From a virus, in the IMG/VR virus record IMGVR_UViG_3300043399_000064, positions 1-33,801 of that record: a DNA stretch of 33,801 bases. One strand, given 5' to 3'. The first letter of the stretch is position 1; each line of letters opens with the position of its first letter. Shown here piece after piece: positions 10,693-17,674 of this stretch. Below the pieces are notes generated by a model. It did no database searches. It was given only the letters and a program-made list of their open reading frames with translations, and was not told where the DNA came from. The position numbers were made by a program, and so were the translations under genes.

Positions 10693-10795
10693 CTAGGTCG
10701 CCTGTCAGTTCAAGTGCTTTGTTGATTGTGTCTAGATTATAAGACAGATTATCCTTGATTCCGTCAAGAATTTCGTGTGCTTGAAAATAATTCAC
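10589..10795 (-). CDS. Small hypothetical protein with out-of-frame C-terminal extension
   Basis: A 68-residue frame that starts with GTG overlapping the previous TGA (GTGA, 10792-10795). The first 36 residues (NYFQAHEILDGIKDN, TINKALELTGDLDG) look like a genuine small helical phage protein. The remaining 32 (RATSGASDKDGFAEG and on) read through the start of the next gene in another frame and look random. The ancestral stop was probably near GDLDG, lost by mutation. The N-terminal part is credible; the tail is probably an accident. Confidence 0.6.
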   Translation of the reverse strand: MNYFQAHEILDGIKDNLSYNLDTINKALELTGDLDGFQPSIRATSGASDKDGFAEGLDCLRETKGAGT

Positions 10796-11532
10796 TTGTA
10801 TTCCGTTTCAGCCATGTGGCAAAAAATGGAACATTCAATGTTTTGTTCTTTTGGGTAATCGCCTGCATCTGGCGGCAGCTCGTCAAGGTAGACCCGTTCA
10901 CCCTTTGACTTTGTGATACTTGCGCCAATCACACGCTCAAGTTTTGCCATGCGTTCAAAGTGTTGCGGAAAATCAACACGAATCTTGTTCCAGTAGCCAG
11001 CGCCACATTTCACACAGCCAATGCAGTTGTTGTTGTGATAGCCAAGGCGGTACATAGCAGGCAATTCAATGTTGGCGTTTTGAAGCATTGCCAGGCAATC
11101 TTCTTTAGACAATCCCTTGTCAATCAGCGGTGTCCAAATGTCCACATCGTTGTTTGCATCAATGAAACGGTCTAGGCGGTGCTGTTCTTCAGCCGTGTAG
11201 CCAAACACTTGCCTGTCTGTCAATTGCTCAAACTTCTGACGAACTTCTTTTTTTAAGAACTTGGTGCATGGAGCGCCAGCGATTCCAACAATGTAGCGTT
11301 GCTTTTCAAAGACGTTAAAAATGCTTCCCTGATACTTTTCGTTTCTCAGAATCTGAATTTCTTGACCAAACCAAGTTTCACATTCTTTTAAGAATCGCTT
11401 GTTGTCTGGGTGTTCTTCTGCCACCTCGGTGTAAGCAATGATTAAAGGCAATTTGCCAGCGTTTTCAGCAATAGCAAGTTTTGTAGCGACTGCGCTTGCG
11501 GCTCCGCAGCTAAACCAACATACGATTCTCAT
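10792..11532 (-). CDS. PAPS-reductase-like PP-loop protein
   Basis: A 246-residue protein of the phosphoadenosine phosphosulfate reductase/PP-loop ATPase superfamily. The nucleotide-binding loop is SCGAASA at 8-14 after a hydrophobic strand (MRIVCWF), followed by LPLIIAYTEVAEEHPD. Cysteines are grouped as GAPC (C89), CIGCVKC (C170, C173, C176) and C234/C238, suggesting a metal or Fe-S site as in DndC-like and thiolation enzymes. Phage members are common, but their substrate is not settled; sulfur transfer to nucleic acid is plausible. The start at 11532 is set by a TAATG overlap with a tiny upstream gene; the longer frame is a shadow of the replication gene. Confidence 0.82.
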   Translation of the reverse strand: MRIVCWFSCGAASAVATKLAIAENAGKLPLIIAYTEVAEEHPDNKRFLKECETWFGQEIQILRNEKYQGSIFNVFEKQRYIVGIAGAPCTKFLKKEVRQKFEQLTDRQVFGYTAEEQHRLDRFIDANNDVDIWTPLIDKGLSKEDCLAMLQNANIELPAMYRLGYHNNNCIGCVKCGAGYWNKIRVDFPQHFERMAKLERVIGASITKSKGERVYLDELPPDAGDYPKEQNIECSIFCHMAETEYK

Positions 11533-11618
11533 TAGCGACCCCAAACAAAAATAGTGCATGAAATAAAGTAGCCAAGCCACAAACCTAATGCAAAAATAAA
11601 ACGTTCTTTTGTGTTCAT
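11532..11618 (-). CDS. Tiny one-pass membrane protein (28 residues)
   Basis: A 28-codon frame: a short charged N-terminus (MNTKERF), then a hydrophobic span IFALGLWLGYFISCTIFVWG ending in Arg. It is joined precisely to both neighbours: ATGA with the replication gene (11615-11618) and TAATG with the PP-loop gene (11530-11534). It fills the only gap between them. The role is unknown. Confidence 0.75.
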   Translation of the reverse strand: MNTKERFIFALGLWLGYFISCTIFVWGR

Positions 11619-12439
11619 GCTTGTACCCCTTTACGCAACTCTGCCAATTTAGCCAATGTTTCCAAAGATGGTGGCACAGCCTTCTTTCGGTCTTCTTCAA
11701 TCTTGCGCAACGCAGCGTCTTGGTTTGGCGGTGGTGGTGTTGTAACGTGAGCAACATCGTATTTGTTGGCAAACTGTTGTTTTTCGTGAATCTCAAAAAC
11801 ATCTTGCCAGCTACTTGTAATTGATTTCTCAAGGACAGCCTGAATGTTTTGCCCATTCGCCTTAAATCTTGCCAATTTATCAACAAGCAACTTCATTGCG
11901 TAATCAGTAGGTGGCTTCTTGATTCGCTTACGCATAGCCAAAAACGCTTCCCAAGTTTCCAATGGCATCCAATCTGGCAAAACAAGAGCGTCAGCGACCT
12001 TTTCTTTTTTAGATGGAGATGAAGAAGAAGATGTAGATGAAGGGGTTGGTTTTTGCTTATCCTCAAGGTTAACCTTACCCTTATCCATCAAAGCAGGGTT
12101 TCCACCCTTAGAACCGCCCGCAGCCCTTATCTGGCGTAGGTTTTCATCACGAATCATGCGTTTTGAGTAAATCACACCTTCGTCAGTTGTTTCATACACA
12201 CCAGCCTGTGAAAGCTCCAAAAGCCAATCAGCAACAACCTCTGCACTATCCCCAACCATACGGGCAAGGTTTGAAGGAAGGATAACCTTATCTCCAACCT
12301 TTAAGTGCCCGTAAGGTGAACCTTCGTGCATGAAACAAATCATATCCATCCACAAACCACGCGCACCTGTTGAACAAGAGCGCAAAGCAGTGTCGCGCAA
12401 CCAATCGCTTGGGTAAAACTGAAATGATGGGCGTTTCAT
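11615..12439 (-). CDS. Replication initiation protein (DUF1376/phage O-like)
   Basis: A 274-residue protein with the layout of phage replisome-organiser proteins. The N-terminal domain (about 1-115) starts RPSFQFYPSDWLRDTALR and has the winged-helix content seen in DUF1376 proteins. A Ser/Lys linker rich in TSSSSSPSKKEK lies at about 125-145. The C-terminal domain carries LPDWMPLETWEAFLAMRKR, DYAMKLLVDKLARFKANGQN and SITSSWQDVFEI, a typical phage replication-protein tail. It probably binds the phage origin and recruits the host helicase; no phage polymerase or helicase gene is visible. An origin may lie within this gene, but I see no clear iterons. It is ATGA-coupled to both neighbours. Confidence 0.85.
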   Translation of the reverse strand: MKRPSFQFYPSDWLRDTALRSCSTGARGLWMDMICFMHEGSPYGHLKVGDKVILPSNLARMVGDSAEVVADWLLELSQAGVYETTDEGVIYSKRMIRDENLRQIRAAGGSKGGNPALMDKGKVNLEDKQKPTPSSTSSSSSPSKKEKVADALVLPDWMPLETWEAFLAMRKRIKKPPTDYAMKLLVDKLARFKANGQNIQAVLEKSITSSWQDVFEIHEKQQFANKYDVAHVTTPPPPNQDAALRKIEEDRKKAVPPSLETLAKLAELRKGVQA

Positions 12440-12618
12440 TCTGCCCCCAATGCTTCACGAATGATGGTTTTTTCATGATTAAAAATTGTCTCAAACTGGT
12501 GAACAGACAGCCAAATAACCGATTCTTCACCATCTGGTCTTTTTTGCAAAATTGAAATAAATCCATCACCATCACCGCAAACTTCAGTTTCTAACTCTGC
12601 TTTCAAAAAGATTGACAT
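12436..12618 (-). CDS. Small hypothetical protein, first gene after the RNA element
   Basis: A 60-residue protein starting MSIFLKAELETEVCGDGDGF, with a beta-rich N-terminal half (FISILQKRPDGEESVIWLSV) and a helical end. The start at 12618 is chosen by its GGAG ribosome binding site, which lies directly after the U-run of the upstream terminator. The longer open frame would begin inside that terminator. Expression therefore needs read-through or a new transcript. It is ATGA-coupled to the replication gene, so control of this start may gate replication. Confidence 0.75.
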   Translation of the reverse strand: MSIFLKAELETEVCGDGDGFISILQKRPDGEESVIWLSVHQFETIFNHEKTIIREALGAE

Positions 12619-12627
12619 ACAAACTCC

Positions 12628-12676
12628 AAAAAAAAACCCTTGACAACCTGTGGTACTAGCACAAGTCATCAAGGGT
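12628..12676 (-). terminator. Strong rho-independent terminator
   Basis: On the minus strand, ACCCTTGA (12676-12669) pairs with TCAAGGGT (12643-12636), extended inward to 17 bp with a 7-nt loop and followed by nine T. It separates the cro/mazG-like genes from the replication genes, so early transcripts need antitermination, read-through or a separate promoter to reach the replication genes. Confidence 0.9.
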
Positions 12677-12733
12677 CAGCCATTGAAGGCTTAGATGTAT
12701 TCGTATCTAGTACATACGACACCTAAACCTTCT
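12628..12733 (-). ncRNA. Candidate small RNA / attenuator with two complementary 7-nt loops
   Basis: A 106-nt element on the minus strand. Hairpin 1 (12732-12685) has 14 bp with two G-U pairs, a 3-nt bulge, 5 more bp and the loop GUACUAG. After an 8-nt linker, hairpin 2 (12676-12636) has 17 bp with three G-U pairs and the loop CUAGUAC, followed by nine U residues. The two loops are exact reverse complements, so they can form a 7-bp kissing helix within or between molecules. A TATAAT box at 12746-12741 would start RNA at about 12733, one base before hairpin 1. No matching family is known to me. An RNase III processing site is an alternative. Confidence 0.65.
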
Positions 12734-12740
12734 GGAAAAA

Positions 12741-12746
12741 ATTATA
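12741..12746 (-). promoter_or_regulatory. Candidate -10 box of the small RNA
   Basis: A perfect TATAAT on the minus strand, correctly placed for initiation at about 12733. No convincing -35 hexamer lies 15-19 bases upstream (CTGTGG at 17 is poor), so it would need an activator or be weak. Confidence 0.4.
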
Positions 12747-15198: not shown

Positions 15199-15207
15199 TT
15201 GATTTTT

Positions 15208-15298
15208 GGGGGAAAGCGGATGCTGTAATGGAAAGCAGGGATGGTCTAAGGACACACCCATAAAACGCTGAGAGTACGGACAGTGCAGCGAGTACCCC
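15208..15298 (+). ncRNA. Structured RNA candidate between SSB-like and wHTH genes
   Basis: The 122-base gap between genes contains, on the plus strand, a GGGG/CCCC closing pair (15208-15212 with 15295-15298) around three hairpins: TGCT/AGCA (15221-15224, 15234-15237), GGG-GTC/GAC-CCC with an internal loop (15238-15259), and CGCTG/CAGCG (15266-15270, 15286-15290). GAGTAC occurs twice (15272 and 15290). The only open frames here are very short. The stems are short, so chance is not excluded. Confidence 0.35.
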
Positions 15299-15320
15299 AC
15301 CTTTTTGCATAGGAACCAAT

Positions 15321-16562: not shown

Positions 16563-16647
16563 AATTATTTGTTTTTTATTTGTTGCAGCAGTCTTTTATG
16601 TAACTGTGTTTTGCGTTGTACTTGCTTTGCTAATTAGTCAAGACTGA
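16555..16647 (+). CDS. Tiny one-pass membrane protein (30 residues), last rightward gene
   Basis: A 30-codon frame with an acidic start (MVE), a long hydrophobic span (ICFLFVAAVFYVTVFCVVLA) and the end SQD. It overlaps the zinc-finger-like gene by 8 bases and runs 18 bases into the convergent endolysin gene. It could be a regulator of lysis or simply a small membrane protein; nothing distinguishes these. Confidence 0.65.
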   Translation: MVEIICFLFVAAVFYVTVFCVVLALLISQD

Positions 16648-17232
16648 TAACGCTTGCGTGATGTGCTTCACGCGATCTTCAAGGCCAATAGTCCCGCCAT
16701 TGATCTTCTTGGTTAGGCCAATCCAATCACCATTTGCGGCTAGTCGGTTGCAATCGTGAGTAGACCAAAACCAGCCAGCAGTTAGGGCGGCAAACTTTGG
16801 AGTTGCCACAAGGTCAGGCTCCATCACAAAGTCAACGCCTAGTGCTTTTCCAGCGTGAAAATAATTTGCATGACCAGTAAGCTGAATACAGCCACGACCA
16901 CGGAAACGATACCCATCTCCAGACGCCTCGTCACGGTTTCCCATTCGATTTGAGTAAACCATGTTTGCAATTTTCTTAGGATTACCACCATACTGATTTG
17001 CAACTTCTAAAGTAGGAAAACGCTTTGCCCACAACTTCATTAAGGTTGCGGCACGATAGTTTAGATTTTCCTCAAGGATGCGAAAGTTACCGCACTCGTG
17101 AGAACACTGCCCAATGAAGGCAGCTTGTTTGTTAGGCGTATCAATCTGAAAACGCTCAAATGTCTCGTTTAGAGCATCTACCCATTCAGGGCCAATGTGC
17201 AACTTTGCTAGTTGTTCAGCGGTTACTGTCAT
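16630..17232 (-). CDS. Endolysin, GH19 chitinase-like lysozyme
   Basis: A 200-residue GH19-type phage lysozyme that cuts the glycan strand of peptidoglycan. The catalytic region is AAFIGQCSHECGNFRILEEN at 37-56 with the acid E46 and the second acid E54/E55 before NLNY. The substrate cleft motif GYRFRGRGCIQLTGHANY lies at about 107-124. There is no signal peptide or SAR-like N-terminal span, so it depends on a holin for export. It overlaps the spanin gene by 17 bases and is the last gene of the late operon. Confidence 0.93.
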   Translation of the reverse strand: MTVTAEQLAKLHIGPEWVDALNETFERFQIDTPNKQAAFIGQCSHECGNFRILEENLNYRAATLMKLWAKRFPTLEVANQYGGNPKKIANMVYSNRMGNRDEASGDGYRFRGRGCIQLTGHANYFHAGKALGVDFVMEPDLVATPKFAALTAGWFWSTHDCNRLAANGDWIGLTKKINGGTIGLEDRVKHITQALSVLTN

Positions 17233-17674
17233 TTACTTGGCTCCTTACTTGCTCATAAGCTGCGATGCAGGCGTTGAGCTTGTTGATTGCTCTGTCGCCT
17301 TCTGCTGCGAGTTCTGCAATAGCTCTAAGAGTCGCTTGCTCAGATTCGCTTCCTGCTTGGTTATCTCCGCTGGCAGTGGTGGAACTTGAACTCCCTTGTG
17401 GGCAACTTGAGTTGAGGCGCACCCTACCAGCACGAATGGCAATATCAAGATCAGTTTGTTTTTTAGTGACAACATCATTAGCCTCTTTCAGTTGTGAAGA
17501 TGTTTGGTTAAGGTCTTCAGCAAGTTTTTGCTCTTTAGCGCGTGACTGCTCATTAAGATTAGCAATCTCTGCTTGCATTTCTTGATTTCGCTCTTTGTAA
17601 CCAGTGTGTGTGCCGTACTTGTAAGTTCCAAGCACCACACAGATTACGCCAATAATCATCCATGGGTTAATCAT
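17216..17674 (-). CDS. Rz: Inner-membrane spanin (Rz)
   Basis: A 152-residue i-spanin. One N-terminal membrane span (MIIGVICVVLGTYKYG, about 6-21) is followed by a periplasmic coiled coil (MQAEIANLNEQSRAKEQKLA to about residue 70). A Ser/Gly-rich segment lies at 95-115 and a C-terminal helix with a cysteine (KLNACIAAYEQV) completes it. With Rz1 it fuses inner and outer membranes as the last step of lysis. The start at 17674 is chosen since the longer frame lies in the holin gene; it overlaps that gene by 8 bases. Confidence 0.9.
   Translation of the reverse strand: MINPWMIIGVICVVLGTYKYGTHTGYKERNQEMQAEIANLNEQSRAKEQKLAEDLNQTSSQLKEANDVVTKKQTDLDIAIRAGRVRLNSSCPQGSSSSTTASGDNQAGSESEQATLRAIAELAAEGDRAINKLNACIAAYEQVRSQVNDSNR
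17245..17478 (-). CDS. Rz1: Outer-membrane spanin lipoprotein (Rz1), nested in Rz
   Basis: A 77-residue lipoprotein entirely inside the Rz gene in another frame. It has a signal peptide (MMLSLKNKLILILPFVLVGC) with lipobox LVGC and lipidated C20. The mature part contains the Pro cluster VPPLPAE (about 32-38) and a Gln/Ser-rich helix, as in Rz1 proteins. Full nesting follows the lambda Rz/Rz1 architecture and fits a Gram-negative host. Two ATGs occur at its start (residues 1 and 2). Confidence 0.92.
   Translation of the reverse strand: MMLSLKNKLILILPFVLVGCASTQVAHKGVQVPPLPAEITKQEANLSKRLLELLQNSQQKATEQSTSSTPASQLMSK

Follow-up and report, generated by a model that had tools for sequence, protein, structure and literature searches.

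A family of two-hairpin phage leader RNAs with covarying kissing loops upstream of DNA-replication genes

Layout of the leader element

The window, meaning the whole 33,801-nucleotide stretch analysed here (IMG/VR virus record IMGVR_UViG_3300043399_000064), comes from a phage with an SU10-type portal; judged by that protein, its closest relative in culture is Methylophilales phage Venkman, at about 51% identity. On its minus strand, genes for MazG and a small membrane protein lie upstream of a two-hairpin element. Behind the element the first gene is a small conserved ORF, MSIFLKAELETEV..., at 12436-12618 (ATG at 12618-12616), a place where relatives often have an HNH endonuclease gene. It is followed by an O-like replication initiation gene at 11615-12439 (PHROG 678, E 2e-19). 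Directly after this gene comes a phosphoadenosine phosphosulfate reductase-like gene (10792-11886, minus), the listed ORFs overlapping. Elsewhere in the window, 16630-17232 (minus) encodes a probable endolysin of glycoside hydrolase family 19 (chitinase-like).

The element itself occupies the gap between the two gene groups. A -10 box, TATAAT, can be read at 12741-12746 (minus), accompanied by a weak -35 box; TTGGCA- or TTTACA-like boxes are found in many relatives. Hairpin 1 (12685-12732), supported by the fold and by stem covariation, consists of a 14-bp lower stem, a 3-nt bulge, a 5-bp upper stem and a 7-nt loop. This loop, GUACUAG (12707-12713), is the exact complement of loop 2 and forms one strand of a kissing helix. 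The bulge, AAT (12699-12701), lies on the 3' side and is a possible hinge. An 8-nt linker (12677-12684), in which copy comparison reveals a conserved GGCTG(A), leads to hairpin 2 (12636-12676), a 17-bp stem with a 7-nt loop that is predicted from the fold, a scan for terminator-like sequences and covariation to be the stem of an intrinsic terminator. Its loop, CUAGUAC (12653-12659), is the partner strand of the kissing helix, as judged by covariation. The U-tract of the predicted terminator, seen in the sequence and in the terminator scan, spans 12628-12636; its first T (12636) pairs with A12676, and the scan accordingly allows the stem to be counted as 18 pairs. The ribosome-binding site of the next gene, GGAG (12624-12627), is evident in the sequence and in relatives.

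The minimum-free-energy structure is exactly these two hairpins (-50.8 kcal/mol, z -8.6), and shuffled sequences never fold as well. The original prediction, which had described two adjacent hairpins ending in a U-run, is thus correct in its hairpin, loop and U-run coordinates, both as read from the sequence and as folded. At the sequence level, hairpin 2 has the G+C-rich stem and following U-tract of an intrinsic terminator, and with its 17-bp GC-footed stem it is a good candidate for one. The linker motif GGCTGA was also considered as an antisense seed and rejected, its complement being frequent in the window without a usable pattern.

The arrangement of these parts is shared by the relatives. 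Among 53 distinct contexts, a TATAAT-like box (4-6 of 6 positions) ends 7-9 nt ahead of hairpin 1 in 50, and the ribosome-binding site begins 8-10 nt past hairpin 2 in 51, with the start codon 4-9 nt later. Spacings this tight leave no room for a further promoter and make the predicted start, hairpins, U-tract and ribosome-binding site contiguous, without slack. Like a cis-regulatory leader, the element has the orientation of the gene behind it and lies between a predicted transcript start and that gene's ribosome-binding site; if the start is as predicted, it is the gene's whole 5' leader.

Copies of the element and covariation of their loops

The element, designated type A, is about 105 nt long and has 68 copies, namely 67 in IMG/VR contigs including the window and one in a GenBank phage genome, MW202710.1. 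Relatives were first sought among IMG/VR phages with a neighbouring O-like replication gene or MazG gene. A few of these carry the element, and their loops have already changed together, for example to GTACAAG/CTTGTAC (L102) and GGACAAG/CTTGTCC (L144). Three scans of the collection, anchored on the 3' arm of hairpin 1 plus the linker, on hairpin 1 alone and on hairpin 2 alone, all reach one family. A covariance model built from 40 sequences, with rough E-values and with the loop-loop pairing left unencoded, recovered the 67 IMG/VR copies. Many contigs come from related freshwater samples, so that copy numbers overstate the independent observations; the independent evidence amounts to 48 distinct sequences and about 20 independent loop changes.

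The dimensions of the element are nearly constant over the 48 distinct copies. The 5' arm of hairpin 1 measures 19 nt and the loops 7 nt, hairpin 2 has 17-18 nt per arm, and the bulge is 3 nt in 44 copies and 4 nt in the other 4, reading RAT in most. The linker is 6-8 nt long in 47 of the 48 and 11 nt in one, with GGC present in all. Every copy has a U-rich tract behind hairpin 2. Loop 1 follows the pattern GNNNNAG (the first letter is A in one copy), and loop 2, its complement, begins with C.

Searches outside the collection returned little. In Rfam 15 the window element has no match at gathering thresholds, and the best sub-threshold match in a permissive search is rnk_leader, at 17 bits where the cut-off is 50. 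Scanning 84,980 bacterial and archaeal species genomes for the pattern yielded no true match; six pattern matches were rejected because the two-hairpin structure is absent in all of them. A Blastn search of cultured phages with the window element was negative; another family member matched the single GenBank genome, whose loops are GGTTCAG/CTGAACC. A match in plasmid CP027479.1 was dismissed as chance, there being neither a covariance-model match nor a two-hairpin structure, and weak plus-strand model matches in the window and its relatives are the mirror image of the hairpins. No description of the element was found in a literature search that covered few subscription papers. Type A is a large RNA family, of which the window element is the founding case.

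In all 68 copies the two 7-nt loops complement each other exactly (by script comparison for the 67), and 14 different pairs of sequences occur. The original claim that a full-length match of this kind is unlikely to arise by chance is upheld by these copies, 67 of 67 of which were found with a model that ignores the loop-loop pairing. Across the alignment of 40 sequences, all 280 cells of the loop-loop helix are Watson-Crick pairs; four of its seven pairs have changed on both sides, none on one side only. None of 500 shuffles equals it in percentage paired or in covariation score, and shifting the partner loop by 1-3 columns abolishes the pairing. Over the 48 distinct copies the helix comprises 336 of 336 Watson-Crick cells, with no G-U pair and no mismatch; the stems, which also covary, contain many G-U pairs and some mismatches. 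When the loop columns are left out of tree building, about 21 changes of loop type are counted on the resulting tree, and no fewer than 19 on any of 20 resampled trees; every change is matched on the opposite side. Independent variation of the loops, which would have spoken against a kissing pair, was thus looked for among relatives and the opposite was found. Because the exact match has been kept through about 20 independent loop changes, the contact is real. Both stems and the loop-loop helix are RNA pairs under selection, and a two-hairpin, kissing-loop structure is near certain.

The stems also identify the folded strand, as their G-U pairs are asymmetric between strands and point to the minus-strand RNA. 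The same asymmetry bears on the idea that the repeats act in DNA, as origin, cruciform or recombination sites. Loops and stems are indeed inverted repeats in DNA as well, and they adjoin replication genes. The many minus-strand G-U pairs would nevertheless be mismatches in DNA hairpins, on which ground the cruciform reading was rejected, and the element fits precisely between promoter and ribosome-binding site; a DNA-level role is hardly credible.

An exchangeable leader slot

The element precedes DNA-replication genes in many freshwater phages. The following gene or operon usually encodes one of several unrelated replication initiators, and the downstream genes include initiators or primosomal proteins of PHROGs 1408, 2509, 5810, 6451, 26426 and 678. 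Other following genes are an HNH endonuclease, a helicase-methylase or a small ORF, several of which precede an initiator or primosomal gene; the second copy in one contig (G058) sits before an antirepressor-like gene. In several phages the upstream gene is Cro-like, and a Cro-like gene ahead of replication genes is the gene order of lambda's early operon.

Comparison of closely related phages shows where the element begins and ends as a unit. Homology between the window and L002 or L003 runs through mazG and the membrane gene and stops at 12736, the predicted transcript start; in the slot where the window has type A, these two phages carry another RNA, type C. With L088 the window shares homology from 12635, inside the T-run, and onward over the small ORF and the O-like gene. 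The slot of L088 holds a third RNA, type B, with the MSIFLKAELETEV... ORF homologue directly behind it. Two further contigs, G021 and G044, are 92% identical over the preceding helicase gene and then have type A in one and type C in the other. G021 carries two type A leaders (17530-17649 and 15202-15319, minus) that flank a helicase-methylase gene and differ in their loop pairs; G040 and G044 have a type C leader in the position of the second. Related phages have type B or type C in the slot, with homology breakpoints at the predicted transcript start and the U-tract, which shows type A to be an exchangeable leader module.

Type B leaders are found in at least 120 IMG/VR stretches, among them L018:3301-3446, L088:2687-2832 and L100:2664-2809 (all plus strand) and loci from L288 on. 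They are built from a TTGGCGG/CCGCCAA stem, a CTGG-loop-CCAG hairpin, a terminator and a ribosome-binding site. The 92 distinct sequences have 20 loop types, and in 83 of them the terminator loop pairs with a segment further upstream, against 13% with swapped partners. A T-run follows in 92 of 92 and a ribosome-binding site in 87 of 92. Type B thus shares the logic of type A, a terminator loop being paired with an upstream segment.

Type C leaders (L002:1597-1743, L003:3457-3601, L005:1610-1756 and L227:8120-8264, all plus strand) follow the pattern GAAAC..CGGCTAGG-hairpin-YGAAAAG..CCTGCCG..GTTTC and have no obvious U-tract. They contain a covarying pseudoknot, in which the segment between GAAAAG and CCTGCC pairs with a stretch shortly 5' of the ribosome-binding site; the best complementarity averages 5.8 nt, compared with 4.1 for shuffled sequences and 4.6 for swapped partners. 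Their internal hairpin loop often has a 4-6 nt palindrome (TCATGA, TAATTA, TAGCTA or GATC), and such loops (L002-L006, L014, L077, L133 and others) resemble self-dimerising hairpins. The type B and type C loci tested have no Rfam match at gathering scores. Types B and C are two further undescribed structured RNAs.

Type C is able to replace type A and lacks an obvious U-tract, so the function that the leaders share need not be termination. In a second reading, the folded 5' end blocks 5'-end-dependent decay, the U-rich stretch and ribosome-binding site yield strong translation, and termination either does not occur or is a side effect. In favour of such a stability or translation leader, types A, B and C all fold right at the predicted 5' end, each with a tertiary pairing, and the U-rich spacer ahead of the ribosome-binding site is near-constant in length. 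Simple hairpins would be enough for 5' protection, however, which leaves selection on the kiss unexplained, and the GC-footed stem of hairpin 2 with its U-tract looks like an intrinsic terminator. We regard this explanation as unlikely.

Proposed attenuation and relation to known RNAs

Among the roles initially suggested, an attenuator in control of the replication operon has the best support, since the gap from promoter to ribosome-binding site is filled by the element, which also precedes replication-initiation genes and is swapped with other leaders. Transcripts reaching the replication genes, whether from this promoter or from upstream, must cross hairpin 2. In both type A and type B the apical loop region of the terminator, which is made before the 3' arm, has its pairing partner further upstream, and from this attenuation is inferred. 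The element is best described as a 5' leader RNA that acts in cis. Most likely it attenuates transcription, with the loop of an upstream hairpin capturing that of the terminator, a reading we hold to be somewhat likelier true than false. Action in cis on the next gene would follow from the same arrangement.

Under this attenuator model, host RNA polymerase would start at the foot of hairpin 1, at about 12735 on the minus strand. Hairpin 1 would form first, exposing its 7-nt loop. As the apical part of hairpin 2 emerges, loop 2 would kiss loop 1 before or during closure of the terminator stem. The kiss may thereby set how often polymerase stops at the U-tract or reads through to the ribosome-binding site and the replication operon, the captured loop either preorganising the terminator or else delaying it. 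A stop at the U-tract would release a stable RNA of about 105 nt. The contact could be made within one molecule or between two; if within one, the hinge would be the 3-nt bulge, which lies five pairs below loop 1.

Geometry speaks to this choice. By our own estimate, the stems and kissing helix would stack into a coaxial rod of 43 bp (19+7+17) with a linker of 8 nt, which makes an intramolecular kiss tight but possible and counts against the attenuator; by the same estimate, a complete kiss of this kind would require a sharp bend at the conserved bulge. The total absence of G-U pairs in the kiss could be a sign of a stricter contact, made between two molecules. Once terminated, the RNA of about 105 nt might instead pair with a second copy of itself, loop 1 to loop 2 both ways, in a two-fold symmetric dimer or in chains. 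Such a dimer, or free RNA on a nascent leader, could report gene dosage and feed back on the replication genes. A double-kiss dimer would avoid the strain of the cis kiss (our estimate), and strict Watson-Crick loops and a predicted promoter and terminator of its own suit a small RNA. Whole-record searches also found four contigs with two copies, and within all four the loops differ and do not match. The chance of this is about 0.5 by our estimate from loop frequencies, so four of four is not unusual and the two-copy phages were rejected as proof of orthogonality. The tight spacing from hairpin 2 to the ribosome-binding site and the swap with type C, itself part of an mRNA leader, both point to cis action, and the hinge-like bulge would have no obvious role in a dimer. 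A self-dimerising or chaining RNA therefore appears rather unlikely.

Several known RNAs offer parallels. ColE1 RNA I and RNA II have 7-nt loops that form a fully paired loop-loop helix in replication control, and they are antisense transcripts of one DNA region. Type A is likewise replication-linked and has fully complementary 7-nt loops, but both are on one strand behind one promoter-like box, and an antisense RNA is not indicated, as the stems tolerate G-U only on the minus strand. The likeness to ColE1 drawn in the original prediction holds for loop geometry only; the opposite-strand RNAs that define membership are not found. In pT181/pMV158-type control, an antisense RNA makes its contact in the leader of the replication-initiator gene. 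Such control of the initiator gene is described for pMV158 (PMC4485353). There the antisense RNA is separate, whereas the type A leader holds both partners.

Like phi29 pRNA, type A has two mutually complementary loops per molecule, with sequences that differ between phages. It consists of two simple hairpins without a three-way junction, in contrast to pRNA, and ends in a predicted terminator. It also adjoins replication genes, not packaging genes, a position that argues against a role in a packaging motor as for pRNA, as far as gene order can tell. The dual hairpins recognised by ANTAR proteins have loops of six nucleotides, the first being A and the fourth G (PMC3369931). Type A resembles the EutV-type dual hairpin in having two hairpins with a short linker in a terminator-linked leader. 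Its loops, however, are 7 nt long, loop 1 starting with G (A in one copy) and loop 2 with C, and hairpin 2 is itself the predicted terminator, where the ANTAR element prevents a separate one. Type A was checked for the features that define membership of the ColE1, pRNA and ANTAR families, and lacks them.

GOLLD and ROOL phage RNAs have conserved covarying kissing loops, which are intermolecular in cryo-EM structures (PMC12286853). Type A is also a phage RNA with covarying kissing loops, but at about 105 nt and with two hairpins it differs from these multi-branched RNAs of several hundred nucleotides, often found near tRNA islands. The put RNAs of HK022 (putL and putR) suggest a further role, in which the nascent two-hairpin RNA would bind RNA polymerase and make it resist later terminators of the early operon. 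The put RNAs, about 70 nt long, have two stem-loops and lie close to early promoters (PMC9378689); hairpin number and kind of position are alike. Put suppresses later terminators, and the text read reports no loop complementarity for it; the second hairpin here is terminator-like, with its own U-tract and a ribosome-binding site behind it. Put-like antitermination seems very unlikely.

With both kissing partners on one RNA, type A might also be a self-recognising leader, in which RNAs released at the terminator bind nascent leaders of their own type and so report phage gene dosage. This is improbable on present evidence. If true, each phage would have a private loop code that tunes replication-gene expression and drifts by paired changes, and two leaders in one genome would work independently.

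The functional assignment as a whole is moderately supported, and the element probably helps control the timing of phage replication-gene expression. Type A adds an RNA family absent from Rfam 15, with an unusually clean covariation of a tertiary loop-loop contact, in which the loop of a predicted terminator hairpin is paired with that of an upstream hairpin. The element is short enough for in-tube tests, and the 14 natural matched loop pairs provide a ready series for kissing-loop energetics. Taken with types B and C, it shows that this group of phages reserves a position ahead of unrelated replication initiators for exchangeable structured leader RNAs, a pattern suggestive of RNA control as a general layer of phage replication.
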